Source: Vulcanimicrobiota bacterium
GTDB lineage: Bacteria > Vulcanimicrobiota > Vulcanimicrobiia > Vulcanimicrobiales > Vulcanimicrobiaceae
Reading direction: 5' to 3'
Assembly: GCA_003140215.1 (NCBI GenBank)
Contig: PLJL01000004.1
Location: 528,193-592,192, forward strand
Length of the DNA stretch: 64,000 bases
Positions 6,965-56,986 of this stretch are shown here, in pieces. Both the position numbers and the translations under genes were made by a program. The notes beneath the pieces were generated by a model, which was given only the letters and a program-made list of their open reading frames with translations, was not told the origin of the DNA and did not search any database. Position 1 is the stretch's first letter, and each line of letters begins with the position of its first letter.

Positions 6965-8005
6965 CTACTCGCGGTGTCCCAACGGGGGCGTGCCGTTGAC
7001 GAAGGCGGGCGGGTTTCGGTCATCGAGCTCTGCATAGATCGAAAAGGCGCCGCTGCCGAGCCCGGTTACGTCGCGATCCGTCGCGTACGTTCCCCCCGGT
7101 GCGACATCATCGGGACGCACGGTCAGGACCTGCAGTGCGCCGCCGGCGAGGGTGACGACCTGCGGCGTCGCGTTCACCAGCTTGACGCTTACCGGCGTGC
7201 GAATTCCGGCCAGGCCCCCGATCGCGATATGCACGGAGACGCGTTCGCCGCGCATCAAGCTGGTTTTCGGCGCGGAAAGCTTCAACGAAATGACGCTGCA
7301 CGGTGCAATGACGGCGAGGCGGTTTTCGGTTAGCCGGTACTCGCTCGGGCCGGAGACATTCGGTGCCGGTGCGACGGCGAGTTTGCGCGGCGATTCGGCG
7401 AGCATCTCCGCGGGCTGTCCACCAATCGTCAACGTCGTGTTTGCGAGATCGCCATCGAAGGGACCGTGGATCGCAAGCGGCTGCCCTGCCACGACGACCT
7501 CCGGGAAGCGGAAGTCTTGCGGCTGCGGCGACGTTCCGGGCCGAGGCTGTTGCGCGTGTGCGGAGAGCGTGACGCGGCCAACGGCCTTGCCCCGCGCATC
7601 CCGAAGGATGAGCTGCATGGTCGATGCGGTGTCCGGCACGCTGAACGTGAGGACAACCAGCGGCGTGGCTAACGCGCGATGCATGCCGCCGTTCGCCTTC
7701 CTCAGTCCGGCGTCGACCACGTACCCTTGCAGCACGGAAGCATTGGCACTGCGTTCGGCATCGGTGCGACCGGCCGGTTCGGCAATGACCGTGCCGCTGA
7801 TGGTGTCGCCGGCGGCCATGTCGTCCGGAAGGTTGACGCGAATGGTCCCCGCCGGGACGCTGAACGGCGTCGAAGTCATACCCGGCGCGGCCCCCGCCGG
7901 GCGCCCCGCGGGCGGCCCGCTGCTCTGCGCGGCGCCGCTACCGGCGACCGCAACGCTGCCGGCGATGCACGAAATCAGAAAAACGGCGAGCCAACGCTGC
8001 GACAA
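6965..8005 (-). CDS. Secreted protein of unknown function
   Basis: 346 residues if translation starts at the TTG at 8005, which has GGGAGG seven bases upstream; a GTG at 8056 would add 17 hydrophilic residues with no ribosome site. The N-terminus is a signal peptide (about [22 protein letters not shown]) followed by a Pro/Gly/Ala-rich linker. The body is beta-rich and looks like two or three Ig-like modules, with repeated [15 protein letters not shown] and [10 protein letters not shown] strands. It is convergent with the ATPase gene and divergent from aqpZ. I do not recognise a family. Confidence 0.6.
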
Positions 8006-8158
8006 GAGCGTGCCTCCCAACGATCGTCCGCGCCCAGTGTACTCCTCGGTCGCCACCCGGCAAAGACTACAGGCTGGACGACGTGTACTTGGGCGTCTCT
8101 ACCGCGGGGAATTCACGAGCAGGGCGTGGCGCCGGTAGCAGAAAAGCGACCGACCACG

Positions 8159-8914
8159 ATGGTCACGCACGCCCTCTCCCGCCGTCTGGCCGCCGAGTTT
8201 TTCGGGACGTTCTGGCTCGTGCTGGGCGGATGCGGAAGCGCCGTCCTCGCGGCGGGCTTCCCGAAGCTGGGCATCGGCTTCGCGGGCGTCGCGTTGGCGT
8301 TCGGACTCACGGTGCTGACCGGCGCGTATGCCTTCGGGCCGATCTCGGGGGCCCATTTCAATCCGGCGGTTACGGTCGGGCTGTGGATCGCTCGCCGCAT
8401 CCCTTCGCGCGACGTGCTGCCCTACGTCGTGGTCCAGGTGATCGGCGCGATCGTCGCGGCGGGAGTCCTGTACGCGATCGCGGCCGGCGCACCGGGCTTC
8501 AGCACGGCGGGCGGCTTCGCCGCCAACGGTTACGGCGATCACTCCCCGGGGATGTACTCGCTCGTCGCGTGCATCGTCTGCGAACTCGTCATGACGTTCA
8601 TGTTCTTGATGGTCATCCTGGGGGCGACCGATGCGCGCGCGCCCGGCGGTTTCGCGCCGCTCGCGATCGGGCTCGCGCTCACGCTGATCCACTTGATCAG
8701 CATTCCGGTCACCAACACGTCGGTGAACCCCGCGCGCAGCACCGGGCCGGCACTCTTCGTCGGCGGTTGGGCGATCGAGCAACTGTGGATGTTCTGGCTC
8801 GTCCCGCTCGTCGGAGCCGCGCTCGCCGGCGCGATCTATCCGCGCGTGTTCGGCGCGCCGGGAATCGCCCCCGAAAAGCCGGGGCTCGGCGCCGACGGCA
8901 GCCCGGCGGGCTGA
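8159..8914 (+). CDS. aqpZ: Aquaporin Z-type water channel
   Basis: 251 residues from the ATG at 8159; the long upstream extension of this frame overlaps the divergent gene and is spurious. Six membrane segments and both half-helix NPA motifs are visible: HFNPAVT near residue 65 and SVNPARS near 187, with an Arg directly after the second NPA as in water-selective channels. The [13 protein letters not shown] loop matches AqpZ proteins. It forms a tetrameric inner-membrane pore moving water rapidly across the membrane. It stands alone, with its stop abutting the convergent subtilase gene. Confidence 0.92.
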
Positions 8915-10396
8915 CTACGGGTGGGCCGCGGCGACCGCGTTCGCCGCGTTGAGCCGCCCCGCGCCCTGACGCGTGCTCGAGACGCCGGCGATCGGGTCGG
9001 CGGTTTGCTGGAGCAGTTGCAACACGCGTGCCGGCGTGAGCGAGCGCGCTCCGCCGTGAAACGCCTCCATCAGCGCGACCGTCCCGGCGACTTGCGGCGT
9101 GGCTTGCGAGGTGCCGTTGAACAGGACCCGGCAGACGCCGCCGCTGTTGGTGCAACGATCCGCCGGCAACGCCGCGGTGGTGGTCGAATAGCCTTCGATC
9201 CAGTGCAGGACGTCGTTGTCGGAAGTCGATGACGCGTCGCCGCCCGGCGCGACGAGCGTCGGTCCGGAATTGGAGTAGGACGCGACGGTTTCGGCGACGA
9301 TCGAGGCATAGAGGTTCGCTGCCGCGTTTTGCACCCCCGACGCTCCGACCGCGACGACGCCGGGATAGGCGGCCGGAAAATCGGGCTGATTCCCGTCGGT
9401 TCCGGGAAAGTCGTTTCCGGCGGCCGCGACGACGACGACCCCTTGGGCGATCGCGAACGCGACGGCATCCGCTTCGGCCGGATCGTTGCCGCTGCTCTGC
9501 GGCGCGCCCAGGCTGAGGCTGATCACCGACGCGCCGTTCGCAACCGCGTCGCGGATGGCGAGCGCTTCGTCACCGGTGTCGGCGGTCTGACAGTCGCTCG
9601 TCGCGGTCGCCGGCGGGAACACCCGGTACGATTGCAGGTGGATCGTGTAGCCGACGCCGGCGAAGCCGTAGCCGTTGTTCGCGGTCGCCGTCGCGAGGCC
9701 GGAGACATTGGTGCCGTGACCGTTGGTGTCTTGCACCGATCCGGGCCCCGTCGCGCGCACCGAGTTGACGACGCTCTCGCGCACGTCGAACGTGAGGTCG
9801 ACGTTGGTCTCGTCGGCGCCGGTGTCGATCACTGCCACCGAGATGCCCGCGCGGCCATGCGTGAGCCCCCACGCCCCCGGATCGACGTTGGTCCGGGAGA
9901 GGTACCATTGGTCGACGTTGTCGAGCAGCGGATCGTTGGCCGACGCGTCGCCGAGCGCGACGCGCACGTGCAGCGGCTGCACGTCGAGAACGCCGGTGCT
10001 GCTCCGCAGCAGGCTCGCCGCCGCCGCGGCGTCGCTCCCCGGCGCGAGCGTGAGAATCCGGCGCGTGAGGCCGCCCTCGGTGCCTGCATCGACGGAGTCG
10101 CCGCCGCGCGCGATCGAAGCGATGGTACGAGCCGCGTTCGCCGCGCTTGCACTGCGATACGTCACGTACAGACGGTTGGGTGAGATCCACGAACTCGGGG
10201 TTCCCGATCCGCGGGCGATTCGTCCGACGGCATTCGGCTCGCGCGCCACGCTCGCACACGTCGACGGTGCCGCGGTCGGAGCGGGAGTAACCGGCGTCGG
10301 AGCCGCGCCGCTGCTGCCGCCGCCTCCGCAAGCGGACAGCACGAGCGCAGCGATGGCGATCGGTGTCGCTCGGGCGAAGGCGTCTACACGGAGCAT
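8915..10396 (-). CDS. Subtilisin-like S8 serine protease, lipoprotein
   Basis: 493 residues from the ATG at 10396. A lipoprotein signal ends in LVLSACGGGG, followed by a low-complexity Ala/Pro/Thr linker and a propeptide-like region (about 45-150). The S8 domain carries the complete triad: Asp191 in VAVIDTGAD, His227 in NGHGTNVSG, and Ser430 in FNGTSQATPQ; the oxyanion Asn lies in VVVAAAGNDFPG. This predicts an active endopeptidase anchored to the membrane and facing outside the cytoplasm. A terminator-like hairpin at 10462-10486 separates it from the secreted-protein gene read in the same direction. Confidence 0.9.
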   Translation of the reverse strand: MLRVDAFARATPIAIAALVLSACGGGGSSGAAPTPVTPAPTAAPSTCASVAREPNAVGRIARGSGTPSSWISPNRLYVTYRSASAANAARTIASIARGGDSVDAGTEGGLTRRILTLAPGSDAAAAASLLRSSTGVLDVQPLHVRVALGDASANDPLLDNVDQWYLSRTNVDPGAWGLTHGRAGISVAVIDTGADETNVDLTFDVRESVVNSVRATGPGSVQDTNGHGTNVSGLATATANNGYGFAGVGYTIHLQSYRVFPPATATSDCQTADTGDEALAIRDAVANGASVISLSLGAPQSSGNDPAEADAVAFAIAQGVVVVAAAGNDFPGTDGNQPDFPAAYPGVVAVGASGVQNAAANLYASIVAETVASYSNSGPTLVAPGGDASSTSDNDVLHWIEGYSTTTAALPADRCTNSGGVCRVLFNGTSQATPQVAGTVALMEAFHGGARSLTPARVLQLLQQTADPIAGVSSTRQGAGRLNAANAVAAAHP

Positions 10397-10461
10397 GCCG
10401 GCCGAGCGTAACGCGTATTTCTGAGGGGAGCGTGAGGTTTGTCGCGTGATCCTAAACACAG

Positions 10462-10486
10462 AAGGGGACGCCTGCGGCGTCCCCTT
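10462..10486 (-). terminator. Terminator-like hairpin
   Basis: A perfect 11-base-pair stem, AAGGGGACGCC paired with GGCGTCCCCTT around a TGC loop. It sits 23 bases after the stop of the minus-strand gene ending at 10509 and before the protease gene on the same strand. There is no long T-run, so termination could be only partial. Confidence 0.6.
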
Positions 10487-10508
10487 CGCGGATGTTGCTG
10501 CCGCTCGG

Positions 10509-10925
10509 TTACTTCTTGCCGAGTTCGCCGCAGGTCACGTAGACCGGGATCTCTTTGGTCGACTTGTGGACGTTGACCGCCAAGCCGCCGGCGACGAGCT
10601 GCGACATCGGCACGTCGAGCATCGTCGTCGACATCCCGTCGACGACCGTCGTGAGCGGATACTTCGGTTTGGGATCGAGCGTGGCGCAGCTGCCGGCGTG
10701 GACGTGCGCGGGTTGCGGCACGTCGGTCGGCGCGTTCGCGAGCGCGAGGTCGACGCGCGTCTTGTCGCCGACGGCGGTCAGCGTCACCGTGCCGAGCTCT
10801 CCCGAGCCGTTCTGCGCGGCCAGCGCAAAGATGCGGTGGGGGCCGTCGGCGGCGAGCGCGGGCAGCGCTACGGCGAGGGCGGCGATTGCGGCGAGGCCGC
10901 CCAGAAAACGGGTGGTACGGATCAC
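10509..10925 (-). CDS. Secreted small protein, CHRD/SOD-like fold suspected
   Basis: 138 residues from a GTG with an excellent TAGGAGG site five bases upstream. A signal peptide (cut near ALPALA, residue 25) leads to a mature domain with an alternating beta-strand pattern. The phrases GSGELGTVTLTAVGDKTRVDLAL and QPAHVHAGSCATLDPKPKYPL resemble CHRD or Cu/Zn-SOD-like beta domains, where HVH would bind metal. The family call is tentative. No copper or redox gene is adjacent. The product should be periplasmic or secreted. Confidence 0.55.
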   Translation of the reverse strand: MIRTTRFLGGLAAIAALAVALPALAADGPHRIFALAAQNGSGELGTVTLTAVGDKTRVDLALANAPTDVPQPAHVHAGSCATLDPKPKYPLTTVVDGMSTTMLDVPMSQLVAGGLAVNVHKSTKEIPVYVTCGELGKK

Positions 10926-11093
10926 GGATACCTCCTAGCTAAGCTCCTTGGCAACTATAGCAAGCTCATGATGAGAAAAGCATGAACCGCCTTAAACGCT
11001 CTTATCTGTTGCCGTGCCTTTGAGACGTTCCTGAGACGGCCTCCCGCTATGGTCGCGGTGGCGGGTTCCTTTTCCGACACCGAGGAGGCTCTC

Positions 11094-11285
11094 ATGGCCG
11101 TATCCGTCCGTAAGTACGTCGACTGCCGCGAATTTCCCAGCGAGAACAACTGCTCGCTCAAGATCTCCGGGACCGAGGAAGAAGTGCTGGCCGCGGCGTC
11201 CCAGCACGCCGTTGCAAGCCACGGTCACCAGGCCGGCCCCGAGCTCACCGAGATGCTGCGCTCGGGCCTGCGCGAGGAACGCTGA
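11094..11285 (+). CDS. DUF1059 small protein
   Basis: 63 residues from the ATG at 11094, which has a consensus AGGAGG at ideal spacing; a longer frame from 11049 is not needed. The sequence opens with KYVDCREFPSENNCSLKISG and ends with a helix containing ASHGH, the standard DUF1059 pattern of two Cys and a His cluster. The function of the family is unknown. The stop overlaps the methyltransferase start by one base, so the two are translationally coupled. Confidence 0.8.
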   Translation: MAVSVRKYVDCREFPSENNCSLKISGTEEEVLAAASQHAVASHGHQAGPELTEMLRSGLREER

Positions 11286-12367
11286 TGGCCGCGGCAACGA
11301 CGGCGCCCGCGCCTCTGGATGAGGCCAAGCTCAACGCGTTCGTCGGCAAGATGGTCGGCGATGTCGGCGCGACGCTGACCGGCGCCCTCGTCATCATCGG
11401 CGACCGTTTGGGCTTGTACCGCGCGCTGGCCGAGCAGGGACCGCTCACGTCCGAGGCGCTCGCGCAGAGCACCGGAACGCACGAGCGCTACGTGCGCGAG
11501 TGGCTGGCGAATCAAGCCGCCAGCGGTTACCTGGAGTACGACCCGGCGACGCGGCAATTCACCCTGCCTCCCGAGCACCAGCCGGTGCTCGCCGACGAGA
11601 CGAGCCCGGTCATGTTGTGCGGGCTCTATCAAATCGCGCAGACGCTCTACGCCGACGAGCCCGCGATCACCGACGCGTTCAAGAGCGGTCGCGGCTTCGG
11701 CTGGCACGAACACGACTCGCGGCTGTTCGCGGCGACCGAGCGGTTTTTCCGGCCGGGATACAACGCGCATCTCGTCGCGGATTGGATCCCGGCGCTCGAC
11801 GGCGTCGAGGCCAAGCTACGCGCCGGCGCCTCAGTCGCCGACGTGGGCTGCGGGCTGGGCACCTCGACGATCGTGATGGCCAAGGCCTTCCCGGCGTCGA
11901 AATTCGTCGGCTTCGACTATCACGACGGCTCGATCGCGGCGGCGCGCCGCTCCGCCGAGCGCGCCGGCGTCGGCGACCGCGTGCGCTTCGAGGTCGCGTC
12001 GGCGCAAACGTTCCCCGGCAGCGGCTTCGACTTCATCACCTGCTTCGATTGCGTCCACGACATGGGCGATCCGGTCGGCGCGGCGGCGCACATGCGCGCG
12101 GCGCTCAAGCCGGACGGCACGTTCATGATGGTCGAACCGTTCGCCAACGACAAGCTCGAAGACAACCTCAACCCGGTCGGACGCGTCTACTATGCCGCCT
12201 CGACCATCTTGTGTACCCCCTCGTCGCTCGCGCAAGAAGTCGGGCTCGGCCTGGGCGCGCAGGCCGGCGAGGAACGCATGCGGGCCGTCTTCACCCAAGC
12301 CGGGTTCACGCAGTTCCGGCGCGCGACCGAAACCCCGTTCAATCTGGTCTTCGAGGCGCGCCCCTAA
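11285..12367 (+). CDS. Class I SAM-dependent methyltransferase with winged-helix N-domain
   Basis: 360 residues. An N-terminal helical winged-helix dimerisation domain (about 20-110, with LTSEALAQSTGTHERYVREWL) precedes a Rossmann methyltransferase domain starting at ADVGCGLGTSTIVMA (about 184) with the acidic FVGFDYHDGS and a FDFITCFDCVHDMGDP motif. This is the architecture of small-molecule O- or C-methyltransferases rather than RNA or protein methylases. It is translationally coupled to the DUF1059 gene (TGATG overlap). The substrate is unknown. Confidence 0.8.
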   Translation: MAAATTAPAPLDEAKLNAFVGKMVGDVGATLTGALVIIGDRLGLYRALAEQGPLTSEALAQSTGTHERYVREWLANQAASGYLEYDPATRQFTLPPEHQPVLADETSPVMLCGLYQIAQTLYADEPAITDAFKSGRGFGWHEHDSRLFAATERFFRPGYNAHLVADWIPALDGVEAKLRAGASVADVGCGLGTSTIVMAKAFPASKFVGFDYHDGSIAAARRSAERAGVGDRVRFEVASAQTFPGSGFDFITCFDCVHDMGDPVGAAAHMRAALKPDGTFMMVEPFANDKLEDNLNPVGRVYYAASTILCTPSSLAQEVGLGLGAQAGEERMRAVFTQAGFTQFRRATETPFNLVFEARP

Positions 12368-12379
12368 CCTGCCGGTCCG

Positions 12380-15300
12380 TTAGGTCGCTGCCGAGACCGC
12401 TTCCGCGACCGCGCGGTTGAACGGCAGCGCCAGATACGCCGCGCGCGTGGCCGCATCGTCGATTGCGGTCGCGCGTGCGCGCATCACCGAGTTCGCCTGT
12501 CGCAACAGCGTGCGCGCCGCGCTGCTGCGGTCGCAGGCGAGCTCGACCTGCGCCGCCGCCCAGAGCCACTCGGTCGGCTGCGGCGCCAACTTCGGATTGG
12601 TCGCGTAGAGCGTCATGAGCTCGCCCGCGGTGCGCCGCGCGGCGTCTCGATCGCCGGCGCGCACGTAGGCCTCGGCGAGCGCGCACAGGTTGTCGCCCAA
12701 CCGCGGCGTCTCACCGGCCGGCCGGCGCAATTCGACCGCGCGGCTGAGGTGCGCGATCGCGTCGGCGTGCTCGCCCAGCCCGCTCTCCGCGGCGCCGAGC
12801 GTCCCCAGGGCGGCCGACTCGAGGTGCTGGGAGTTGATCGCGCGTGCCAGCACCAGCGCTTGGGCCGCGCAGTCCTTGGCTTGGTCGAGCTCGCCGCGCA
12901 GCCGCCGGCAGTAGCTCGAGTCGATGCGCTCGACGCAGGCCACGAACCGCGACCCGATCTCGCCGGCGAGCTCGCGCGCCCGCGCGTAGAAGTCGATCGC
13001 GCGGTCGAGCAGGCCCAGCTCGGTGTGAAACAGGCCGAGGTCGACGAAGATGCTGGCCAATCCGACGCGGTGTCCGATGCGCTCGTAGATCTCGAGCGCG
13101 CGGACGTAGTACGCGTCGGCGTCGGCGACGCGGAACGTGTACACCAGCCCGTTGGCCATCGTGTGCAGCGCCAGCGCCTCGCCTTCGCGGTCGCCGATCG
13201 CGTGGCTGACCTCGTGCGCCTCGGCCGCGAATCGCGACATCGCCGCATAGTCCTGCTGCGCGAGCGCGGCCCGCGAGAACGCGATGAGCGTCCGCACCAG
13301 CGCGCCTTGGTCGCCGTCGGATTGCACCGCGGCGCGCAGCTCGTCCAGCGCGCGGTACGCCTCGTCGAGCCGGCCTTCGTAGATATAGGTGTCGGCCAAG
13401 GCCAGACGCGCGTTGGCGTGCGCGCTGCGGTCGCCGCTGCGCTCGGTGAGCTCGATCAGCTCGCCGAACGCCGCGCGCGCCGCGGCGAAGTCGTTGATCG
13501 CGCGCCGGTACCGTGCCTCGGCCTCGAGCCAAGCGCCCAGCCGCCGCACGTCGCCCGAGCGGCGCACGCGCCGTCGCAGCAACGCCAACAAAATGCGCTC
13601 GCGCCGCCGGTCGCTGGTGACGTTCGCCAGCGCGATGCGCCGCTCCAGAACGGTGCAAACGGCATCCTCGTCGTCGATCGCCGCGGCCAGCTGCGCCAGC
13701 TCGTCGGCGATGCGCCCTTGCAATTCACGATCGCCGTCGGCCGCGGCGATCCGTTCGCGCAGCAGCAGCGCCTCGAAGCGCAAACGGCGCGAGGTGCTCA
13801 GCTCCAGCACGCGCGCGAGGTGGCGCCCCGCGTCGGCGTTGCCGTAGACCTCGAGCGCGCGCCGTGCCGCGGCAAGATAGTGCTCCGCGGCGATCTCGGG
13901 CTCGCCGCCGCGATCCCAATGCAGCGCCAGCTCGGCCGCGACGTCGTCGCGCCGGTCCGCGTAGAGCGTCGCCATCACGTGCGCGACGCGGCGGTGCCGG
14001 CGCGCGCGCGCGGCGGGTGCGACGTTCTCGTACACCAGCGCCTGGATCAGGTGGTGGCTGAACGCGTAGTCGAAGCCGCTGCGCGTGCCGCGCTCGGCGA
14101 CGATGCGGCGATCGATCAGCTCGCCCAGCGCGTCGAGCACGGCAGCTTCGAGCCAACCGGTCGTCTCGCGCAAGAGCTCGACGTCGAAACCGCGGCCGAT
14201 GACCGCCGACACCTCCGCCAACGTCTTCGCCGCGTCGCCCAGCCGGGCCAGACGTGCGGTCAGCACGCCGCGCAGTGCCGGGGGTACGCCGCCCGCGGGC
14301 TCGTCGAGCGACCAGCGGCCGGAGCTGTCGTGCAGCCGTCCGGACTCGCCGAGGTCGCGCAAGATCTCTTCGAGGAAGAACGGGTTCCCGTCGCTGCGGT
14401 CGTGCAGCGTGCGCGCCAGCTCGGCGGGATCATCGACCTCGCCGAGCGCGCGCACGAGCGCTTCGACGTGCTCGCGACCGAGCCGCGCCAGCGCCACGTG
14501 CGACGCGGCCCCTTCGCGTTCGAGGCGCCGCCGCAAGGCGCGCAGCTGATGCGCCGGTTCGAGCTCGTCTTCGCGGTAGGTGGCGACGAGCAGCACGCGG
14601 CTGCGCACGCAGCCGCGTGAAAGGTGCTCGAGCAAGCTCAGCGTCGCGGCGCCGGCCCAGTGGACGTCCTCGATGACCAGCACCACCGGCCGGCGCGTCG
14701 CGATCGCTTCCCACACCCTGGTGCAGGCCTCGAACAGGCGCAGACGCTCGCGCTCGGGGTCGACGGCCGGCAACGCCGGTACGTCACGCGCATGCGCGCC
14801 GATCGACGGAGCCAACGCCGCGAGCGCGCCCAGCCACAACGGATCGACCGCGACGCCGGCAGTCAACGGCGCGACGACTCGCAGCAATCCCACGAAGGGC
14901 TCGTAGGGGATCGTCTCGGGGAAGGTCGTTCCGGCGCCGTAGGTCTGCGCGCCGTGCGCCTCGCACTCCGCCGCGAACTCGCGCACGAGGCGCGTCTTGC
15001 CGATCCCGGCCTCGCCACCGACGAGCACCAAACCGCCGTGGCCCGCCGCTGCGGCCTCCCAGCGCTCGCGCAGGGCCGCCAGCTCTGCGGCGCGGCCGAC
15101 GAACGGCAACGACGAGATCGTGGCGCCCGAGCTGCGCAGCAACGGCTCCGGCGCCGGCGCGGGCGCCGGCGCGGCGTCGCGCGCGATCGCTTCGTACACG
15201 GCGAGCGTCTCAGCCATCGGGTCGGTCCCCAGCTCGTCGCGCAACGCCTGGGCGAACCGCTCGTACTCCGCCAACGCGCCGGCCCGATCGCCGGCTTCGT

Positions 15301-30468: not shown

Positions 30469-30478
30469 GCGGCAGCCC

Positions 30479-30931
30479 GTGGTCCGCTCGCTCGTGAATC
30501 GATGCGTCCTCGGCGCCGCGCTCGGCGCCCTCGTCCTCGCCGCGCCGGTGGCGGCGCGCGCGGCGATCGACCCGTGCTCGCTCATCCCGACGGCGCAGGT
30601 TCGAGCGATGACCGGCGGCACGGGCAAGGGGAGTTGGCATCATGCCGTCGGTCACGGCCGCTACGCGCAGGAGACCTGCCACTACGACGGACCGCTCAAG
30701 CGCGCCGTGCTCGTCGCCGTGCATCTCGACGCGCGGCCGTTCGCCACGGTGAAGTCGATGACCAAGCCGCTCCCCGGCGTCGGCGCCGACGCGATCTACA
30801 TGGCCGGCCCGACGAGCGTGATCGCGTTCGTGAAGCACGGGCACTACGTCTCGATGAGCTGGAACGCCGATCCCGGCAAACCGTCGCCGCAGTTTCTCGC
30901 GGCCGCGAAGGCGGCAGCCGCGAAACTTTAG
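30479..30931 (+). CDS. Secreted protein, DUF3558-like
   Basis: 150 residues from a GTG at 30479, ten bases after the protease stop. A signal peptide (cut near ARAAID) leads to DPCSLIPTAQVRAMTGG, resembling the start of DUF3558-type lipoproteins and other proteins that bind small ligands, with two further Cys-His features in ETCHYDG. The domain is about 120 residues of mixed alpha-beta. Function unknown. It is the last gene of the ordinary region before the scar at 30981. Confidence 0.6.
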   Translation: MVRSLVNRCVLGAALGALVLAAPVAARAAIDPCSLIPTAQVRAMTGGTGKGSWHHAVGHGRYAQETCHYDGPLKRAVLVAVHLDARPFATVKSMTKPLPGVGADAIYMAGPTSVIAFVKHGHYVSMSWNADPGKPSPQFLAAAKAAAAKL

Positions 30932-30980
30932 TCCCGCGGGGTTATGATTCGGCGTCGGCGATAGAGGGTCGCATCTCGCA

Positions 30981-31055
30981 TCACGATGGCGCGATGTTGA
31001 CGGGGATCGCGATCGTCGCGGAGGTGCCGTCGCTGCGGCTCGCGACGAGTGAGGC
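30981..31055 (-). pseudogene. 3' fragment of a second secretin gene
   Basis: On the minus strand 31055 to 30981 reads 24 codons and a stop, with SLVASRSDGTSATIAIPVNI in common with the C-terminus of the secretin encoded at 54338-56986. At the DNA level 30991-31053 matches 56911-56973 in inverted orientation with two mismatches. Homology stops abruptly at about 31054. It is therefore the end of a second secretin gene whose remainder has been lost, not a gene of its own. Confidence 0.8.
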
Positions 31056-31199
31056 GCAGGAGTTTCGCTTGTTGCCATGGATGCCCAAGGTATCGCCTAC
31101 GCCAGAATGCCGCCTCACGTCACTCCATTGGATGCGCTCAAAGCAGACGTGTCCTTGTGGAATGCCGGATGGGATTGGGCCGCGGCCAACTGCGGCTAG
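31053..31199 (+). pseudogene. Possible C-terminal remnant of an RHS-type toxin
   Basis: The plus frame is open from the edge of the secretin fragment to a stop at 31197. It ends in DALKADVSLWNAGWDWAAAN and CG, a protein-like, Trp-rich composition. There is a possible ATG at 31077 with an AGGAG 15 bases away, so a free-standing 40-residue peptide is an alternative. Position argues for a toxin end: secretin remnant on one side read away from it, and a small membrane protein 12 bases downstream, mirroring the intact RHS locus at 48.5-57 kb. No RHS sequence itself is left. Confidence 0.4.
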
Positions 31200-31211
31200 G
31201 TGGATAATCCT

Positions 31212-31946
31212 ATGACGTCGAGTGAAAGTCCAATGTCTGCCATCAGCAAGAAAAAATCGCTGTTGGTCTTCGCAGGAGCCGCCCTTAGCTTGGTTTGCGG
31301 CGTGTATCTTATCAGCCAGATCTCAGCGTTGGCGGCGTGGTATGCGATGTTGACTGGCGTAGCTTGCTACCTGCTCTTCAGTACAGCACTCGCGGCGAAT
31401 GCCGTAGCGAGGGCTCGGCTCGGTTGGCGTGAACGTACCCTACGCTTCGTCGGGGCCGTCTGCGTACACACCATGGCGGCCGTGCTGCTATTTGTTCTAG
31501 CTGATGCATCGAGAGGACTCGGGGCGGCGGTGCGGTGGGACCCGCAGGGGGAGCCTAGCGACAGCAGCATGTTCCCTTATGCGTGTAGCATCTCGGATCT
31601 AGCGTCCGCCTCCAATGCAAAGGGGGACACGGCTGCCGCTCGGCTTGGGGATTGCGGTTGGGGACCCTGGGCGGGGATGAGTTATGGATACATTGTCGTA
31701 GCGATCACGCGTTCCCGAGGCACCCAGAAGAGCCGAGAAGTCGTTTTGCGCTATGAGCCAACTACTTCAGAACGCTGGGCTTGGCCAAAGATGAAATGGC
31801 AGAGCGACGATATCTTAAGCGTTACGGTGGGCAATAATGCCATCGAGCAGGTATCAAAGCAGCGTTTTGATCTCGAGGGCCTGCACGTACGCTACTCCCT
31901 TGGGGCAGCGAAAAAGCCGCCGATGACCATTTGGGACCGGCTCTAG
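31212..31946 (+). CDS. Three-helix membrane protein, candidate immunity protein
   Basis: 244 residues from the ATG at 31212 (another ATG lies 21 bases later). Three membrane helices occupy about residues 13-32, 38-62 and 80-102; the rest is a soluble domain with two Cys (PYACSISD, GDCGWG). Base composition is less GC-rich than the neighbours, which suggests transfer. I do not recognise the family. It follows the possible toxin remnant by 12 bases in the same orientation, the position where RHS immunity genes lie. Immunity function is inference from position only. Confidence 0.5.
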   Translation: MTSSESPMSAISKKKSLLVFAGAALSLVCGVYLISQISALAAWYAMLTGVACYLLFSTALAANAVARARLGWRERTLRFVGAVCVHTMAAVLLFVLADASRGLGAAVRWDPQGEPSDSSMFPYACSISDLASASNAKGDTAAARLGDCGWGPWAGMSYGYIVVAITRSRGTQKSREVVLRYEPTTSERWAWPKMKWQSDDILSVTVGNNAIEQVSKQRFDLEGLHVRYSLGAAKKPPMTIWDRL

Positions 31947-32416
31947 GGAAACTCTGATGAACGAGGCGCGGGTGTCTATCGGGGCATTGAAGCGAAGACC
32001 TACGGACCTATGAGCCGAGCGTCCGCCTTGGACCGACGTCTTTCGGCGAGCCTGTATCTCTCGGATCGCGTCCGTAACGCCCGAAGTGATCGATGCAATC
32101 TTCGCAGCTCTGAACTCTCACCGAGCTGAGTCCATTTTGCTAGGACGCCGGAAAAGAGCGAGGGCCTTGCGCTTCCGGAGTGCACGTGGACACGCCAGCC
32201 GTGAGGCACCTCCCGTGACCGCGATCGCAACACGGCGCTGAACTTTGCGCGATACGCGGCCAGCGAACTTTCGTCAGCCTGTGAAGCGAAAGGCTCTCGC
32301 GATCGACGCAGACCGCCGCGAAACCAGCCGCATAGAGCCAGGAACGGTGGCCTGGAAGAGATGTCCATGCTCAGAACAGGAGCGTGTGACGGTTGCGCCC
32401 GAACGTGGGCCGTTCC
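31947..32416 (+). other. Intergenic leader upstream of ileS
   Basis: About 470 bases with no convincing gene on either strand; the minus-strand frame through here is mostly an antisense shadow of ileS. I looked for a T-box (an AGGGTGG-ACCGCG pair) because ileS is a common target. A single GGAACGGTGGCC at 32340-32351 is the closest match, without the expected antiterminator partner. Regulation of ileS therefore remains open. Confidence 0.4.
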
Positions 32417-48571: not shown

Positions 48572-49069
48572 TCAATGAGCACTTGCTCCGAGTTCACCGA
48601 AGAATTCCTGTTCAGCACCGAATAATATGTCCGCTGCTCGGGAAGGGGCAATTTCCGCCAACCGTATCATTTCCGTGGGCACCTTAACTCTCAAAGTGCC
48701 CGAACTTCTCGCTGACTTCGAAGCGGCGAGCAAAGCGCGAGCCCAGGTCCTGAAGGCCGTCTCGGCGTCAACTGCGTTCGGTGCACTCAGCACCAGGCCG
48801 GCCAAAATATAGTCAGGCCACCCCTCCGCTCGATCAGCTCCGCTCGTTTTGACCACTTGAACAACGTCTTCGACGGGTCGAACGTTCCAACGTTCAGTTC
48901 CAGCCAGCGGCCAATAGAGCGCGTCGAATCCGGGTATGCTCTTCATTCCATGGGTCGAGTACGCGACCGAAAATAGTCGAAGTCCGACGTCACGAAAGGC
49001 TCGCGCGTAGTGTTCTACGGAACGCTGGTCCCCCTCGAAAAGAACTACCTCGGGCTTAACTGAAGTCAT
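48572..49069 (-). CDS. Probable immunity protein of the RHS toxin
   Basis: 165 residues; its ATG overlaps the RHS stop (ATGA), the position and coupling expected for the cognate immunity gene. It is cytoplasmic, with no signal or membrane segment, mixed alpha-beta, with VVLFEGDQRSVEHYARAF and FDALYWPLAGTERWNVRPV. I do not recognise the family. Because the toxin looks like an ADP-ribosyltransferase, a binding or de-ADP-ribosylating protein would make sense, but nothing in the sequence proves that. Confidence 0.6.
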   Translation of the reverse strand: MTSVKPEVVLFEGDQRSVEHYARAFRDVGLRLFSVAYSTHGMKSIPGFDALYWPLAGTERWNVRPVEDVVQVVKTSGADRAEGWPDYILAGLVLSAPNAVDAETAFRTWARALLAASKSARSSGTLRVKVPTEMIRLAEIAPSRAADILFGAEQEFFGELGASAH

Positions 49070-52000
49070 TTATGGATAGTGACCGGTCCGTGCGGGAAAT
49101 GGCTCGCATCCAGTATGTATTGCCCTTTCCCGGGCACCCCAAGATCCTGGAGGAGCGGTGGCAACCTATCGACATGAAACACCGCAGAAGTGATTGTGTA
49201 CGATTCGCCGTCCTTTGCGAAGAACGCTGCATAGTGTTGAGCGGCTTCCAATGACGGCGTAAGATATTTTATCTCATTTCCGCGACCAAGTCGATAGGTT
49301 CCCGTGGCTGCGATGTCCTCCAGTTCACCCGGGCCTACCGCGCGGAAGAGGGTCACGGTGGCCTCGGCCCCGCCCCCGCCCATTTTGAACGGCGTGAGCG
49401 CTCCGAGCAAGAGCAAGGTATTCGGTAGGAACTGTTTGCCGTCGAGCGGGTCGAGGTTGAACCGCTGTAGCAGCTCTGCCGCTTCTTTGGGCGACATTGT
49501 CGGTTTTGGTAACGCCGCGCAATTCACCAGCGGCGTTAAGGGGTGATCACGACAATCTCGGCCTTCGTATCCGCTTGGGTCCTGATATCTATATGGGTTG
49601 TTCCGATCATACATATATGGCAGTTGCGACGCCGGATCTGCCGTCGCGTTTGCTAGCGCGTCAGGCGTAGTCCAGTGGCCGAGGGAGGTATCAACGCCGC
49701 GTACGCCTTGGACGTTAAATCCGGCATAGCCAGAGATATTCTCCGGCTTCGGCTCGCTGATGACGATGCATGGCGGCCCAGCACCGTATGCATTGCATTC
49801 CGCCAAGACTACTCGCGACGGATCGCCGAACGTGTCGTTATACGAAATGTTGGACGTGCTCCAGCTCGTCGTATGTGCGTCTAGGATTACTCCTGAAGCA
49901 TCCCGATCATAAACAGCCATATTCCCATCGGCCGTGGTCACTTCGGCAAACGCGCCGATCTTCACGTCGTCAACGCCGGCAGACGGCGAGCTGGTTGTGA
50001 AAAGCAGCGAGTCGCCGTCCCAATGCATGTACTCGTTGAAAGTACTCGAGTTTCCTGACGTGACGCCTAGTTTGAACGGGTGACCCCCTGTGCCCCAAGA
50101 GATCACGTACGTCCAGTACGACGCCAATGGTCCAAAGGAACACGCCGTGCCCGAAGATGTTTGGACCCCCAACCCCCCGATGAATTCGGATGTTGTATGG
50201 TCTTCAGCATCGTACGTGAACCGCTTCTTGTCTTCGGAGCCCGCTGCAGTATTGAACTGGTAGCTGGGTGTGCACTGTTGAAGGTCCGAGCTCACAAATC
50301 GCCCGGATGCGTCGTACGTGATGTTGCTCGTGTAGTTCGTCGGGTCGTTTCCGTTTGCGTACTGGCCGGCACTTGAAATTTCAAAGCCGTCGAGTGGATT
50401 TAGTGGCAGATTCGGAGATGAGCCGATCTGCCCGAGCGGGAAGCCAAATACCGTGTTGCGCGCTGGAGGCCCGCCTGAATACGCACCGGTCATGCCCGGC
50501 AACTGGATACCACTGGCGTACTCGTTAATCGTGGTGCTGCTAACGTTTGTGCTGGTAGGCCCTTCGAACGCGACCTCGTCACGGTTCGAGAACTTGCGCG
50601 GCGCAGACACATGCGATCCTATGTACTGGACGCTCGCGGCGTTATACGTCGTACTATCGAGCTCCGACGACTGGTTTCCCTCGAGATCGGTCGAAATGCC
50701 ATTGACAGTGTATCCGTTACTGTACGTTACTGCGGCTCTATTGCCAAAAGCATCATAGGCGTTTGTCAACGGGTGAAATGTGCTGGCGAAGCCGCCTCGC
50801 GGACTTGTTCTCGGATCTTCATTAACAGCGTTGCCGTTAGCGGGGTCAGTCCGCTGTAGCAGCCTGCCGCCTGTGCTGTAGGTCCAGACGAATGACTTCC
50901 AGCCGCCATTGTTTACTTGCTGCTGCGCCGGCAATCCATCGGCACGATAGCTGTAGGTGAAAAGTTGCTGGTTGAGGGCGCCGGAAACGCTCAGCGCAGT
51001 TCGCCATCCGTTTGCCGCGTAACCGTATGAAATTGTGTTACCGCCCTGGCCGACTGGCTCAGTCGCGGCAAGCACGTGGCCCACCGCGTCGTACGCATAG
51101 GACTGCGTTCCGAGAGCCGACGTGATCGAGGCGACGCGCGCCCCCGAGTCGTAGGTGTACGTTCGCGACGGTGCTACTGCAGAAGACGGCGAAGGCGGAG
51201 CACCGCCTGGATATGCAATGGTGGTCGACGCCAAGTTGCCTTCGGCATCGTAGTCCGTAGTGATTGACTCTCCCGTCGCTTTGGTGTCGGACGACTGGCG
51301 ACCCCACGTTGTCTGAGTTTGATCGTAGAGGCGTTGATGCTGTGGAGTTACCCCGACAGCCAGATCATAGCTTGCGGTTGTCCGGTCGAGGGCATCGTAC
51401 GCCGTTCCTAGATGGTCGACCCATTGCGGAGCGCTGTCGTTTGCCGAAAATCCTAGATCGGCGTAGCTTCTGGTGTCGTAGAGGTTACCATATGCTCGGA
51501 ATGGCGCCGTTGACGTTGCCGTCGTAATCGACGACGCCGGAATCGTGAGAGTCTGCGTTCCACCCGCCGATAAGTCGTAGAGGTGCTGCGTAAGCCATTT
51601 GTAGGGATGATAGTCTACGGTCGCATCATACGGCTGCATAGTCTCGACGAGGCGATCCGCGCCATCGTACCAGCTTGTGGTTACACCGGCGGAGCAATTC
51701 GTAATCGTGACACATCCGTGATGATGCGCCTCAGTGATCTTATCTCCGTCCAAGTCATACGTAAAGGATACCGCTGCGTCTGTTGAGCCCGCGGCGACAT
51801 CTGCCGCATGCTGCGCTGACGTCTCAGTATATTGGACCTGGCCGTCCGGAAAGTAGTGAGTGTATTTGGCGGTTTGGTACGATGATGAAGTCTTGCCGCA
51901 TCCTGGAATGGCGTTGTCGTCGGGGTCGGCAAGCGCGACCTGCCGGTTGAGGTTGTCGTACTGGGAGAGCCAGCTACCTGTACCATTGAAGTAGCATATC

Positions 52001-54183
52001 TCATTCCCGTTGAGGTCGTACTGAAATGTTTGGGAGGGCGAAAGGTTCGCAGGCGCTTGTCCTGCGGGATTCTGCACGATTGGATCGCCGACGACGCTAG
52101 TCACCAAACCGTAGTCAGCGCCACCTTGCGAGCTCGGTTGGTATGAGTACGTGTTGGTATAGCCGTTTGGGGCGGCTGCGGTTGCTGGCGTAGTACTTGA
52201 GGCCAGCTCGCCAAACGGCTCGATCGTTGTCGTGGCCCACTGGAATCGCGACGCATAAGGCGATTGCGGACAGAGCCCTTGACCTGCCGGGGGTGGCGTA
52301 GGGCGGACTGTCCAGTCGCCGCCCGGCACCGACGAGTGGGTTGCCACCGGATCACAATAGGCAGTTACGTTGTTGTTCGAGTCGTACGAGTACAACTTCG
52401 TTCGCCGAAATGTACCCTGCGATGTCGCAAACGGCGGCCCTGCCACAGCAATCGGATTGCCGTTCCCATCATACGCGTAGTCGGTCTCATTTCCTCGCGG
52501 ATCGAGTTCGGCTACAAGATTACTATTGGCATCCCAGCTCTCGTTGGTGGCCAGCATCGTCCCAGTGCACGTCCAAATTCCAGTAGTCGCGGTGCATTCT
52601 TGTGTCTGGGTCGGGCGGCCCAATCCGTCAACGACCCAATTCGTATAGTGCCCATCCGAGTCGCGGTAGGTCGGCGTCGTAACGCCCGTTTGGTACCACT
52701 CGTATAGATACACCATCGGGCCGGTGGTGTAGCCGCTCTGCAAACCCCCGGAACTGACGCCGTCGGGGACCGCTGGGTTCATGACACCGACGTGTGCCAA
52801 GCCGCTCAAGGTCGACGACGGAACGTCAGCTCCAGCAAAGGCCAGAGCGATGTAGCCCCCGTCCGATCCAGTCCAACGTGGCGTGGTTGCGTACCACATC
52901 ACGTAGCCCGTGCCGAGCGCCTGATAGCCGAACCCTTGCGTCGGTCGCGTTCCAGCCGTGTTATTGGGCGGGTGCGACACGCTGGTGAGATTTCCGTTGG
53001 CATCATAGGCGTACTGGACCGTAGTTCCCGGTTGGCCAGGCCTGTCGTCCGGAAACGTGATCTTCTGCAGTAGGCGAAGATTCGAGGGACCAACGTTTGC
53101 GAATGTAAGCGTTGTACTCATCCCGGACTCGGCCTGTACCGAGATGGTGTTGATCTTCCCGGTGGAAGACGCGTCGCCGTTGTCCCATGTATAGTTGAAG
53201 GTCAGATACGTGTTGCGATTGCGGCCAATGATTTGATAGAGACGCCCGGCATAACCGCCAACAGAGCCGAGCCACGGACACCACAGCGTAGGGTTGCCGC
53301 CGTAGAAGTAGTACGACGTTCCGGACTTCTTGGTCCAGAGCCAGCCGCACGATCCATCGAAAACGAGGGTGGCATGCTGCCCGGGCGTGAGGGGGGTCAA
53401 CGGGGTTCCGGCCGGGTTTCCGGGCGGCGAATAGTAGTCGTAGCGCGCACCGTCGATGTCGTAGATCGTTTTTAGCGTGGACGACATCGAGAGGAAGTGG
53501 GCATCGAACGTGTTGGTCCAGCCGTTGCCGTACAGGCTCGTCCAGCTGCCGAACTGGTGAGGAACGCTCGCAGCGCTCTGCGAGTTGTACGTACGCCGGA
53601 AGGCCATGGCGATGCCCTTGTGAGGCACCACCATGTCGTCGTCTTGCAGCAAAAGGTTACCGGTCCCGACGTTGACCATGAGGCGCCCGCCACCGGGAAC
53701 GCCTTGTTCCTGATACCGCCACCACGGATTGATCCCGGTTCCCGAGGCGGTGGAATCACCCGGGAGCGACTGCGCGCGGCGCGTACCCGGCTGCGCGGCC
53801 GCACCCGGTGCAGCGCGCCGTACGCTGCCCGCAGGCTTCACGGTGATTTCCGCCGGCACCAATGCGCGTCGGCGCGCTGCCGCCTTGATTACGGCATCGA
53901 TCTCGGTTGGCAGCGCCATCGGCGGACCGGCGACGTGCACGCCGGTGGGCGGCCGAACGGCGGGGACGACCTTCGGACGCATCGCACTTGCCGGCGGCAT
54001 GGACGCTCGCGCGTGCGGGGGCTCCGGGACGTGCACCCGGACGGGGGGAGCGGCAAGTGCGACCGTGGTCGGCTGCAGCTTCGCTGCTCCGCGGGCCTCG
54101 GAGGGTGCCATGGCCGCTGGCAGCGGGGCGACAAGAGACAGGCACAGCACGACGGCGACCGTGGTCCGAGGGCGCAAAGGCAT
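49066..54183 (-). CDS. RHS-repeat toxin with N-terminal signal peptide
   Basis: 1705 residues from the ATG at 54183, which has GGGGGAG eight bases upstream. A Sec-type signal peptide (TTVAVVLCLSLVAPLPAAMA) and a Pro/Ala-rich linker (to about 150) precede a DUF6531-like region (GGGRLMVNVGTGNLLLQDDD). Many YD repeats follow, for example YDANGNLTSVSHP and YDAVGHVLAATEP. The RHS core ends in YMYDRNNPYRYQDPSGYEG near 1580. The final 100 residues form the variable toxin tip, starting TLFRAVGPGELEDIAATG. No VgrG or PAAR domain is seen. It is divergent from the orphan secretin, and its codons are less GC-biased than the neighbours. Confidence 0.9.
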   Translation of the reverse strand: MPLRPRTTVAVVLCLSLVAPLPAAMAPSEARGAAKLQPTTVALAAPPVRVHVPEPPHARASMPPASAMRPKVVPAVRPPTGVHVAGPPMALPTEIDAVIKAAARRRALVPAEITVKPAGSVRRAAPGAAAQPGTRRAQSLPGDSTASGTGINPWWRYQEQGVPGGGRLMVNVGTGNLLLQDDDMVVPHKGIAMAFRRTYNSQSAASVPHQFGSWTSLYGNGWTNTFDAHFLSMSSTLKTIYDIDGARYDYYSPPGNPAGTPLTPLTPGQHATLVFDGSCGWLWTKKSGTSYYFYGGNPTLWCPWLGSVGGYAGRLYQIIGRNRNTYLTFNYTWDNGDASSTGKINTISVQAESGMSTTLTFANVGPSNLRLLQKITFPDDRPGQPGTTVQYAYDANGNLTSVSHPPNNTAGTRPTQGFGYQALGTGYVMWYATTPRWTGSDGGYIALAFAGADVPSSTLSGLAHVGVMNPAVPDGVSSGGLQSGYTTGPMVYLYEWYQTGVTTPTYRDSDGHYTNWVVDGLGRPTQTQECTATTGIWTCTGTMLATNESWDANSNLVAELDPRGNETDYAYDGNGNPIAVAGPPFATSQGTFRRTKLYSYDSNNNVTAYCDPVATHSSVPGGDWTVRPTPPPAGQGLCPQSPYASRFQWATTTIEPFGELASSTTPATAAAPNGYTNTYSYQPSSQGGADYGLVTSVVGDPIVQNPAGQAPANLSPSQTFQYDLNGNEICYFNGTGSWLSQYDNLNRQVALADPDDNAIPGCGKTSSSYQTAKYTHYFPDGQVQYTETSAQHAADVAAGSTDAAVSFTYDLDGDKITEAHHHGCVTITNCSAGVTTSWYDGADRLVETMQPYDATVDYHPYKWLTQHLYDLSAGGTQTLTIPASSITTATSTAPFRAYGNLYDTRSYADLGFSANDSAPQWVDHLGTAYDALDRTTASYDLAVGVTPQHQRLYDQTQTTWGRQSSDTKATGESITTDYDAEGNLASTTIAYPGGAPPSPSSAVAPSRTYTYDSGARVASITSALGTQSYAYDAVGHVLAATEPVGQGGNTISYGYAANGWRTALSVSGALNQQLFTYSYRADGLPAQQQVNNGGWKSFVWTYSTGGRLLQRTDPANGNAVNEDPRTSPRGGFASTFHPLTNAYDAFGNRAAVTYSNGYTVNGISTDLEGNQSSELDSTTYNAASVQYIGSHVSAPRKFSNRDEVAFEGPTSTNVSSTTINEYASGIQLPGMTGAYSGGPPARNTVFGFPLGQIGSSPNLPLNPLDGFEISSAGQYANGNDPTNYTSNITYDASGRFVSSDLQQCTPSYQFNTAAGSEDKKRFTYDAEDHTTSEFIGGLGVQTSSGTACSFGPLASYWTYVISWGTGGHPFKLGVTSGNSSTFNEYMHWDGDSLLFTTSSPSAGVDDVKIGAFAEVTTADGNMAVYDRDASGVILDAHTTSWSTSNISYNDTFGDPSRVVLAECNAYGAGPPCIVISEPKPENISGYAGFNVQGVRGVDTSLGHWTTPDALANATADPASQLPYMYDRNNPYRYQDPSGYEGRDCRDHPLTPLVNCAALPKPTMSPKEAAELLQRFNLDPLDGKQFLPNTLLLLGALTPFKMGGGGAEATVTLFRAVGPGELEDIAATGTYRLGRGNEIKYLTPSLEAAQHYAAFFAKDGESYTITSAVFHVDRLPPLLQDLGVPGKGQYILDASHFPHGPVTIHK

Positions 54184-54265
54184 GAGCAAAGCTCCCCCGC
54201 CCGGAAGGCGGAGACGAAAAAGACGCCTGCTCCGATAGTCTAGGCCAGTATGCGTCTAGTCATAC

Positions 54266-54295
54266 CGGTACCTTGACCAAAAGTACAGGGTACCG
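54266..54295. promoter_or_regulatory. Inverted repeat framing the secretin promoter
   Basis: Perfect seven-base arms, CGGTACC (54266-54272) and GGTACCG (54289-54295). They extend to ATAC(C)GGTACC and GGTACCGTAT with one bulged base. The left arm abuts the -35 box and the right arm abuts the -10 box. This placement is typical of a repressor or promoter-distorting activator site. It lies between two divergent genes and could control both. Confidence 0.55.
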
Positions 54296-54301
54296 TATAC
54301 T
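54273..54301 (+). promoter_or_regulatory. Sigma-70-type promoter of the secretin gene
   Basis: TTGACC and TATACT separated by exactly 17 bases, each one mismatch from consensus (TTGACA, TATAAT). Start of transcription would be near 54308, leaving a leader of about 30 bases to the GTG at 54338. It is one of the clearest promoters in the window. Confidence 0.7.
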
Positions 54302-54337
54302 AAGCGCTCATCGCTCGCCCCGTCAAGTAGGCCAACC

Positions 54338-56986
54338 GTGAATTTCCGCACCGCGCACCGCTGGAGCAGGTGCGCGATTCTGTGCCTCGGGCTGGCTTTG
54401 GCGGCAGCGCTCGACGGCGCCCCGGCGCGAGCGGCCGAGCCGCTGCGAACGAGCGTCACGCTGCACGCGCAGAACGAGCCCGTGCGTGCGGTGCTGCTGC
54501 GGCTGGCGCACCAAACGGGTGCCAACATCGCGGTCTCGGACGGCGTGAGCGGGTACGTGACGCTCGAACTGCACGGGGTTACGCTCGCGCAAGCGCTGCG
54601 CGCGATTCTCGAGCCGCTAGGCGCCGGCTATCGGCTTCGCGACGGCGTGTACGACATCGCGGCATCGAACGGCCCGGCACGCACCGGTGCCGGCGGACCG
54701 GTCGTCATCCCGCTGGCGCTCGTCACGGCCAAGCGTGCGGCCGCGCTGGTGCGGCCGCTGTTTCCACAAGTCTCGTTGCGTGAGGACGAGCGCGCCAACG
54801 CCCTCATCGTCACGGCCGCACCCGCCGACGTGCAGGCGATCCGCAGCGTGGTCCAGGGCATCGACGTGCGCGACCCCACGACAGCGACTACCGAAGCCTT
54901 GCCGTTGCGTGTGGCGCGTGGCAGCACGCTCGCGGATCAGCTACGCAAGGCCTTTCCGAAAGCACGCTTCGGCCTCGCCGGCGACAAGCAGCTGCTCGTC
55001 ACGGCGAGCCCGGTCGAGATGGCGCAGATCAAGACGGCCGTCAACGCGTTGGACGCGCCCAACGTGACGCCGCCGCCGGTCGCAATGTCGACCGAAGCCG
55101 TCCCGGTGTCGCGGCGCGCGCCGCGCGACGTCGCGCGCGCGCTCGCGGCGCAGGTGCCGGGATTGCACGTCGCCGTCTCCGGCAGCGCTGTGGTCCTGTC
55201 CGGGCCGCCCGACGCCGTGCAGCGCGGTAAGGCGCTCGTCGCACAACTCGATCTGCCCAGCTTCGGCGAACGCTACACCCAGGTCTATCGTATCCGGACA
55301 CTCGATGCGTCTTCCGTCGCGGATCTCTTGCGGCGCAGCTTCCGCGACCTCGACGTCACCGTGGACGCGTCGCTCAACGCGATTGCGGTGACGGCTACCG
55401 CCGCACAGCAGCAGCGCATCGCGGACGCGGTCACCCAGCTCGACGCGCCGCCGAATACGCAAACCGGTCAGGTGGGGCAAGGCGTCCCGCCCGGCAACGG
55501 CTCGACCGACGTCGTCACGCTCAAGTCGTACATCCCGGGCTCGGCGCAGGGCGGCGTCGATGCGGTCACGGCGTTCACCCAAGCGCTACAGATCGTTACG
55601 CCGGACGTACGCGTCGTGCAACTGCCGACTCCGGGGCAGATCGCGCTGCTGGGTCCACCCGCCAGCGTGCGCTCCGCGCGGCAGTTCATCGACAAGGTCG
55701 ACGTCGTCCCGCCGCTGGTCGTGCTCGACACCGAGGTGCTCGAAGTCGACGAGAGCGTGGCCAAGAACCTGGGCCTGCAGCTGGGCACTGCGGCGCTAAG
55801 CACCACGTTTAGCGAAATGCCGGCTCAGCCGAACGCAGACGGTACGACCGGGCGCCTGGGGCAGTTCCAGGCGCTCACCCGAACGCCGATCTCCTTCACG
55901 GCGCAGCTCAATCTGCTCGTGCAGAATGGCAAAGGACGGGTGCTGGCCGACCCCCGCATCACGACGCTTTCCGGACGGACCGCGTCGATCCGAGCCGGCG
56001 ACACCATCTCGATTTTGACCACCACCTCCGGCAACGCCGGGACGATCGCCACGACCCAGGTGCAGAGCTTTCAGACCGGCGTTACGCTGGACATCACCCC
56101 CTCGGTCACGCCCGACGGCGGCATCAACGTCACGCTGCATCCCGTGGTGAACAGCCTCATCGGGACCAACAACGGCGTGCCCCAGATCAGCACTCGCGAC
56201 ACCCAGACTACGGTGCACTTGCACGACGACGAGACGCTCATCATCGGCGGCCTGATTCAAGAGAACGAGACCCGCACGACCACTAAGCTGCCGCTCTTAG
56301 GCGATATACCCTTGATCGGGCGCATCTTTCGCAACGACTCCGTGCAAGGTCAACGCAACGAGCTGATCATCGTGGTCACCCCGCACATCGTCAAGCCGGG
56401 TGCTCCCGCACTGCCCGGGCCGGCGCTGCATTCCATCCCCACGCCTGCCCCGCTGCCGACGCTGCCGCCGAACACGCGGCTGCCCGCGCCCAACGGACAG
56501 ATTCCGCACGCGCGAGCCGCCGCATCCGCACGCGGCGTCGCGCCGGCACCGACGGCATCGCCGCCCGCGATCGCCGCGCCGGTCGGGCTCGTCACCGCGT
56601 CGCCGGCGCCGCTCTCGCAGCCGACGGCGTTCGCGCAGACCAACGTGTTCACGTTCGGCTCGGCCCCGCAGAGCAACTTCGCGCGCCCGACCGATCCGGT
56701 CCAGATCTTCTACGCCACGCTCGCGCCGACGGTCGTGTCCAACGGCACGCCGGTACGCATCGCCGCCGTCACGACCTCAAACGCCAACACCGTGAAGCTC
56801 CAGGTCGGCACCCAGACGATCAGCCTCGTCCAGACTGGGCCAGGCCAGTGGCAGGCGGCATTTCCGTTCCCGCTCAGCGCTGTCCCGGTCGGCCAAGCGA
56901 CGTTGCAGACCTCACTCGTCGCGAGCCGCAGCGACGGCACCTCCGCGACGATCGCGATCCCAGTCAATATCGCCACACCGCCGTGA
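54338..56986 (+). CDS. Orphan secretin (GspD/PilQ-type) with extra C-terminal domain
   Basis: 882 residues from a GTG. A signal peptide (cut near ARAAEP) is followed by an STN/N0-like domain (about 35-110, SVTLHAQNEPVRAVLLRLAHQTG). Three or four N1-type KH-like modules come next (NALIVTAAPADVQAIRSVV, SLNAIAVTATAAQQQRIADAV). The secretin channel domain (about 445-690) ends in DDETLIIGGLIQENET and LLGDIPLIGRIFRND. A Pro/Ala-rich tether and a beta-sandwich-like domain of about 90 residues follow. Secretins form giant outer-membrane pores for type II, III or pilus systems, yet no partner gene is here. It is divergent from the RHS toxin. Confidence 0.9.
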   Translation: MNFRTAHRWSRCAILCLGLALAAALDGAPARAAEPLRTSVTLHAQNEPVRAVLLRLAHQTGANIAVSDGVSGYVTLELHGVTLAQALRAILEPLGAGYRLRDGVYDIAASNGPARTGAGGPVVIPLALVTAKRAAALVRPLFPQVSLREDERANALIVTAAPADVQAIRSVVQGIDVRDPTTATTEALPLRVARGSTLADQLRKAFPKARFGLAGDKQLLVTASPVEMAQIKTAVNALDAPNVTPPPVAMSTEAVPVSRRAPRDVARALAAQVPGLHVAVSGSAVVLSGPPDAVQRGKALVAQLDLPSFGERYTQVYRIRTLDASSVADLLRRSFRDLDVTVDASLNAIAVTATAAQQQRIADAVTQLDAPPNTQTGQVGQGVPPGNGSTDVVTLKSYIPGSAQGGVDAVTAFTQALQIVTPDVRVVQLPTPGQIALLGPPASVRSARQFIDKVDVVPPLVVLDTEVLEVDESVAKNLGLQLGTAALSTTFSEMPAQPNADGTTGRLGQFQALTRTPISFTAQLNLLVQNGKGRVLADPRITTLSGRTASIRAGDTISILTTTSGNAGTIATTQVQSFQTGVTLDITPSVTPDGGINVTLHPVVNSLIGTNNGVPQISTRDTQTTVHLHDDETLIIGGLIQENETRTTTKLPLLGDIPLIGRIFRNDSVQGQRNELIIVVTPHIVKPGAPALPGPALHSIPTPAPLPTLPPNTRLPAPNGQIPHARAAASARGVAPAPTASPPAIAAPVGLVTASPAPLSQPTAFAQTNVFTFGSAPQSNFARPTDPVQIFYATLAPTVVSNGTPVRIAAVTTSNANTVKLQVGTQTISLVQTGPGQWQAAFPFPLSAVPVGQATLQTSLVASRSDGTSATIAIPVNIATPP

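Follow-up and report, generated by a model that had tools for sequence, protein, structure and literature searches.

Positions 30981-31946 of the window, the 64,000-nucleotide stretch of DNA analysed here, probably hold what is left of a secretin-RHS-immunity unit that was inserted upstream of ileS and subsequently lost its centre, with a stub of the RHS gene and an immunity gene left in place. This deletion reading is likely and is supported by two comparable junctions, one elsewhere in the same genome (L007) and one in a sister species (L095). The scar comprises the following features:

30932..32390, no strand: insert, approximate extent, with a DUF3558-like gene on one side and ileS on the other
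30981..31054, minus strand: final two dozen secretin codons, reading outward, stop codon TGA at 30981-30983
31053..31199, plus strand: 3' stub of an upstream gene, 48 codons, open from the junction, TAG at 31197-31199; probable RHS toxin tip
31212..31946, plus strand: 244-aa protein, three membrane helices at its N terminus and the C-terminal part soluble, from Shine-Dalgarno sequence, hydropathy and a single-sequence model; probable orphan immunity protein

Results

The unit to which the scar was compared lies intact in the same window. The original prediction had given its order as the secretin end outermost, then a divergent RHS gene and then the immunity gene, and coordinates and Pfam matches agreed with this order:

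54338..56986, plus strand: intact secretin, the reference unit (Pfam Secretin 2.3e-45, Secretin_N, STN)
49066..54189, minus strand: intact RHS gene with signal-like N terminus, repeats, core and toxin tip (Pfam RHS_repeat 3e-17, DUF6531 9.9e-9)
48572..49069, minus strand: putative immunity gene, 165 aa, overlapping the RHS stop

NCBIfam recognised a YD repeat and, weakly, Rhs_assc_core in this RHS protein, while the 165-aa putative immunity protein fell into no family of Pfam or NCBIfam. Beside the secretin end, a minus-strand open reading frame (57092-57628) runs over repetitive DNA, whose repeats suggest a Lys/Arg/Ala-rich protein resembling histone H1.

The unit had been proposed to have existed twice. 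It existed more often than that: the genome contains three RHS-bearing units (that of the window, L006 and L050), together with the remnants L007 and L134. The units and remnants outside the window are located as follows:

L006, C7:34-42 kb: further unit, same genome
L007, C4:1.64 Mb, same genome: secretin codons 702-882 joined to an RHS core end
L050, G000:C4:2276000-2292000, 7930-10379: secretin cut at codon 819
L134, G000:C4:1070000-1088000, 7588-11757 (C4:1.08 Mb): RHS gene without its first 336 residues

Across the family, an RHS gene stood beside the secretin, nearly always in divergent orientation, at 13 of 18 loci with enough flanking sequence, the 18 having been picked by similarity and not being an unbiased sample. 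The RHS N-termini resemble Sec signal sequences as judged by eye, and VipB, the sheath protein of the type VI secretion system (T6SS; PF05943), was found in none of 11 genomes of the genus, with a positive E. coli control. A secretin paired with an RHS gene that encodes a signal sequence was observed in the window (48572-56986) and at L006, L050, L053, L055, L056 and L058, and again at L059, L099 and L101-L104, in a genus with no detectable T6SS sheath gene. It is possible that such pairing provides a dedicated export route.

Comparison of the window with itself aligned positions 30991-31054 (minus strand) to 56910-56973 (plus strand) with 62 of 64 bases identical (E 2.65e-25), an alignment that establishes the secretin origin of this end of the scar. 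The two differences from the intact gene are both silent (CCA/CCC and AAT/AAC). Read on the minus strand, the scar gives SLVASRSDGTSATIAIPVNIAPS before its stop codon, compared with SLVASRSDGTSATIAIPVNIATPP (closing in NIATPP) for the intact secretin. Since the final few codons differ between the two, about 24 secretin codons remain in the scar and not the 25 originally counted, although the match with its two mismatches was reproduced. The same self-comparison bore out that secretin homology breaks off at 31054, and an outward-reading secretin 3' end thereby forms one border of the scar. When the whole genome (Candidatus Eremiobacterota) was searched, the 64-base element matched secretin 3' ends only, and the scar copy also matched those at C7:34090 and C4:1639900; a widespread repeat unrelated to secretins was thus not seen. 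The idea that these 64 bases form a functional DNA element was rejected, as conservation at synonymous sites is unexceptional (in full-length secretin comparisons, the rank of the 21-codon window at the 3' end varies between the top 22% and the bottom 16%) and no RNA family matched. Also rejected was an origin of the scar by splitting of L050: the secretin there breaks off at codon 819, whereas that of the scar starts only near codon 858, and L050 has its own tip and immunity gene as well.

The insert is 1.46 kb in length and its right end lies just upstream of ileS. An M50-type gene is separated from ileS by only 25-128 bases in seven of ten congeners. Among the others, G001 has two DUF3558-like genes between M50 and ileS, with ileS about 17 bases after the last of them, G006 has an unrelated insert in the interval, and G003 showed no M50 gene next to ileS. 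Adjacency of M50 and ileS in most congeners therefore identifies the scar as an insertion relative to them, at a site that is empty in most of them. Different inserts are seen in the M50-ileS interval of G001 (L085), of G006 (L084) and of the window (30469-32390), and the interval may be a tolerant insertion site. The plus-strand genes of the scar are co-directional with both neighbours. Neither coding signal nor match was obtained for the roughly 440 bases between the membrane protein gene and ileS (31947-32390), and a promoter and terminator scan gave nothing beyond chance.

On the right of the junction, the stub frame, whose product ends in GWDWAAANCG, opens at 31053, directly after an in-frame TGA, and contains no RHS core motif, its start coinciding with the junction. 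Composition alone would produce a 48-codon open frame with a chance of about 21%, and the open frame by itself is therefore weak evidence. In codon use it outscores the other five frames, yet its score is borderline for coding sequence (11th percentile of true frames). The next gene has a good Shine-Dalgarno sequence, AGGTGG at 31198-31203, which overlaps the stub stop, as expected for coupled genes. GC content is 60% in the stub and 58% in the membrane protein gene, similar to the 55-60% of the tips and immunity genes in the other units, whereas the window as a whole has 67% and the secretin 69%. The stub also occupies the place in the scar that the RHS tip occupies in L007. Polymorphic toxin tips commonly lack detectable relatives; none was found for the stub in 149 genomes of the phylum, plasmids, Pfam or NCBIfam, an absence that counts as weak evidence where polymorphic tips are concerned. 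Likewise, a full RHS gene ending in this tip beside this membrane protein, which in a relative would have confirmed the original prediction, was sought among the relatives and did not turn up. Given that the scar has no RHS core, the identity of the stub rests on gene order, composition, Shine-Dalgarno overlap and the L007 precedent, which together suggest that it is probably an RHS toxin tip.

The membrane protein gene begins with an ATG at 31212, 12 bases past the stub stop, and hydropathy placed three hydrophobic helices within residues 8-106 of its product, in agreement with the three-helix membrane protein originally noticed at this distance. A single-sequence model of the protein reached a mean pLDDT of 50; its helices were the only usable part and were confident no further than about residue 100. 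Relatives were found neither in 60 related genomes, plasmids, Pfam and NCBIfam nor in genome_contigs and viral_contigs, the latter two having been searched with exact short peptide-pattern seeds that distant relatives would escape. No stand-alone operon of stub and membrane protein lacking an RHS link, the outcome that would have spoken against the prediction, was found either. The gene is probably that of an orphan immunity protein.

Two further junctions indicate how such a scar can arise. At L007, which retains 181 secretin codons, the match to the secretin extends to 9425 and that to the RHS core runs from about 9429-9432 (WTTSDAY...YMYEGNNSYAYSDPSGY); to the right of the core follow a tip and a gene that overlaps the tip stop and is weakly DUF695-like (E 3.9e-4). 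The left neighbour of L007 had no close counterpart in congeners in the synteny check. At L095, in the sister species G008, the last 28 or so secretin codons abut sequence from upstream of an RHS gene that is still intact. Read against L053, a complete paralogue in the same genome that has kept its whole secretin, this junction has secretin homology as far as 7499, and homology to the RHS-upstream region already sets in at 7496, so that the two share a microhomology of about 4 bases. The two junctions therefore indicate that deletions within the unit do leave an outward secretin end beside RHS sequence, and RHS sequence is present across both of them, whereas none is recognisable in the scar of the window.

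The secretin ends at 30981-31054 of the window and 7412-7499 of L095 have similar lengths (about 24 and 28 codons), in different species and at different sites; this may reflect chance, a site prone to breakage or a first deletion common to both. L095 additionally carries a second RHS C-terminal half (13598-14974) downstream of its intact RHS gene, a displaced tip of the kind seen in classical rhs arrays. The secretin of L050, 95% identical to that of the window, continues in frame into an apparent MBL-fold hydrolase gene, which makes L050 another rearranged unit. L134 has no secretin nearby and adds one more damaged unit to those of this genome.

Discussion

We propose that a secretin-RHS-immunity unit was inserted between the DUF3558-like gene and ileS, and that a deletion reaching from the secretin 3' end to the RHS 3' end, presumably via illegitimate recombination, would have removed both gene bodies, some 7-8 kb for a unit of typical length. 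Such an event would leave two dozen secretin codons, a start-less toxin-tip stub and the intact downstream immunity gene. As this gene lies between the M50/DUF3558-like genes and ileS and on the same strand as both, read-through transcription is possible, and the orphan immunity gene would persist, probably protecting against kin that still make the toxin. That the stub is an RHS tip, that the gene confers immunity and that it is expressed we infer. With respect to the original prediction, the secretin match, the deletions of the same kind at L007 and L095 and the site found empty in most congeners uphold a second unit that stood here and lost its centre, but the identities given to toxin and immunity gene were not confirmed.

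It could be argued that the secretin remnant is real while everything to its right is unrelated cargo, namely a lone membrane gene that joined later, next to a stub that is no toxin tip. Such a view would accommodate the missing RHS homology, the lack of homologues for both tip and membrane protein, the one-in-five chance of the 48-codon frame and the unassigned 440 bases or so to the right of the membrane gene. However, gene order, the shared GC class and the overlap of the Shine-Dalgarno sequence with the stub stop argue against it, as does the parallel at L007, where the RHS core is still recognisable, and we consider unrelated cargo unlikely.

Deletion in place would not be needed if the unit had arrived already reduced, as a small cassette with the secretin end serving as its border or recombination site. 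We judge this very improbable. The window and L095 do retain almost identical stretches of some two dozen secretin codons, and between units at different sites homology is lost no more than about 12 bases from the secretin stop, but synonymous sites in the secretin 3' end show no unusual conservation, the 181 codons kept at L007 and the lost end at L050 indicate that there is no fixed border, and the junction at L095 is a simple microhomology one. Misassembly of repeated units, by which a secretin end would have been joined here wrongly, is a concern in a draft genome of 7 contigs that is 87% complete and contains several similar secretins. No other secretin end in the genome is identical to that of the scar, tip and membrane gene are unique, and both flanks agree with congeners, all of which makes such an artefact scarcely credible.

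By deletion, the scar would join known products of toxin locus decay. In E. coli EC93, orphan immunity genes were expressed and the toxin fragment was not (Poole et al. 2011, PMC3150448). The orphan rhs-CT/rhsI and cdiA-CT/cdiI modules described there are like the scar in that a start-less toxin fragment precedes a small gene that is intact, away from any full-length delivery gene; unlike these modules, the scar is separated by 18 kb from the nearest full RHS gene, sits beside ileS and has a secretin 3' end attached. Most rhs orphans are also marked by the RHS core end before the variable tip. This core end is absent from the stub, which therefore would only work like an orphan rhs-CT/rhsI module and is not a proven member of that class. 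For Vibrio, it has been proposed that old immunity genes are retained and that illegitimate recombination is involved (Kirchberger et al. 2017, PMC5361080). In these T6SS orphan immunity arrays, as in the scar, the immunity gene outlasts its effector; there, however, the effector is displaced by a new module, whereas the scar would result from deletion inside a unit, in a genus in which VipB was not found. The closest counterparts are L007 and L095, where a secretin 3' end is joined directly to RHS sequence, followed at L007 by a tip and an immunity-like gene, although L007 has 181 secretin codons and an RHS core end, and L095 a whole RHS gene. The scar is an ordinary kind of remnant left by a known decay process in an unfamiliar secretin-RHS setting.

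More tentatively, the scar could be one of several traces of a unit that is mobile and multi-copy in Eremiobacterota, with a polymorphic RHS toxin that has a Sec-type signal, is accompanied by its own divergent secretin and is exported independently of a T6SS; the scar would add an orphan immunity gene maintained through read-through from its neighbours; this broader picture is possible, and we hold it with reserve. If it is true that the secretin exports the RHS protein, this would constitute a delivery route without a description found in the literature searched. The scar itself is a modest example of polymorphic-toxin locus decay that leaves immunity genes behind. Its value is that of a pointer, which led to several secretin-RHS copies and remnants in a single genome and to a pairing of the two genes across the family.
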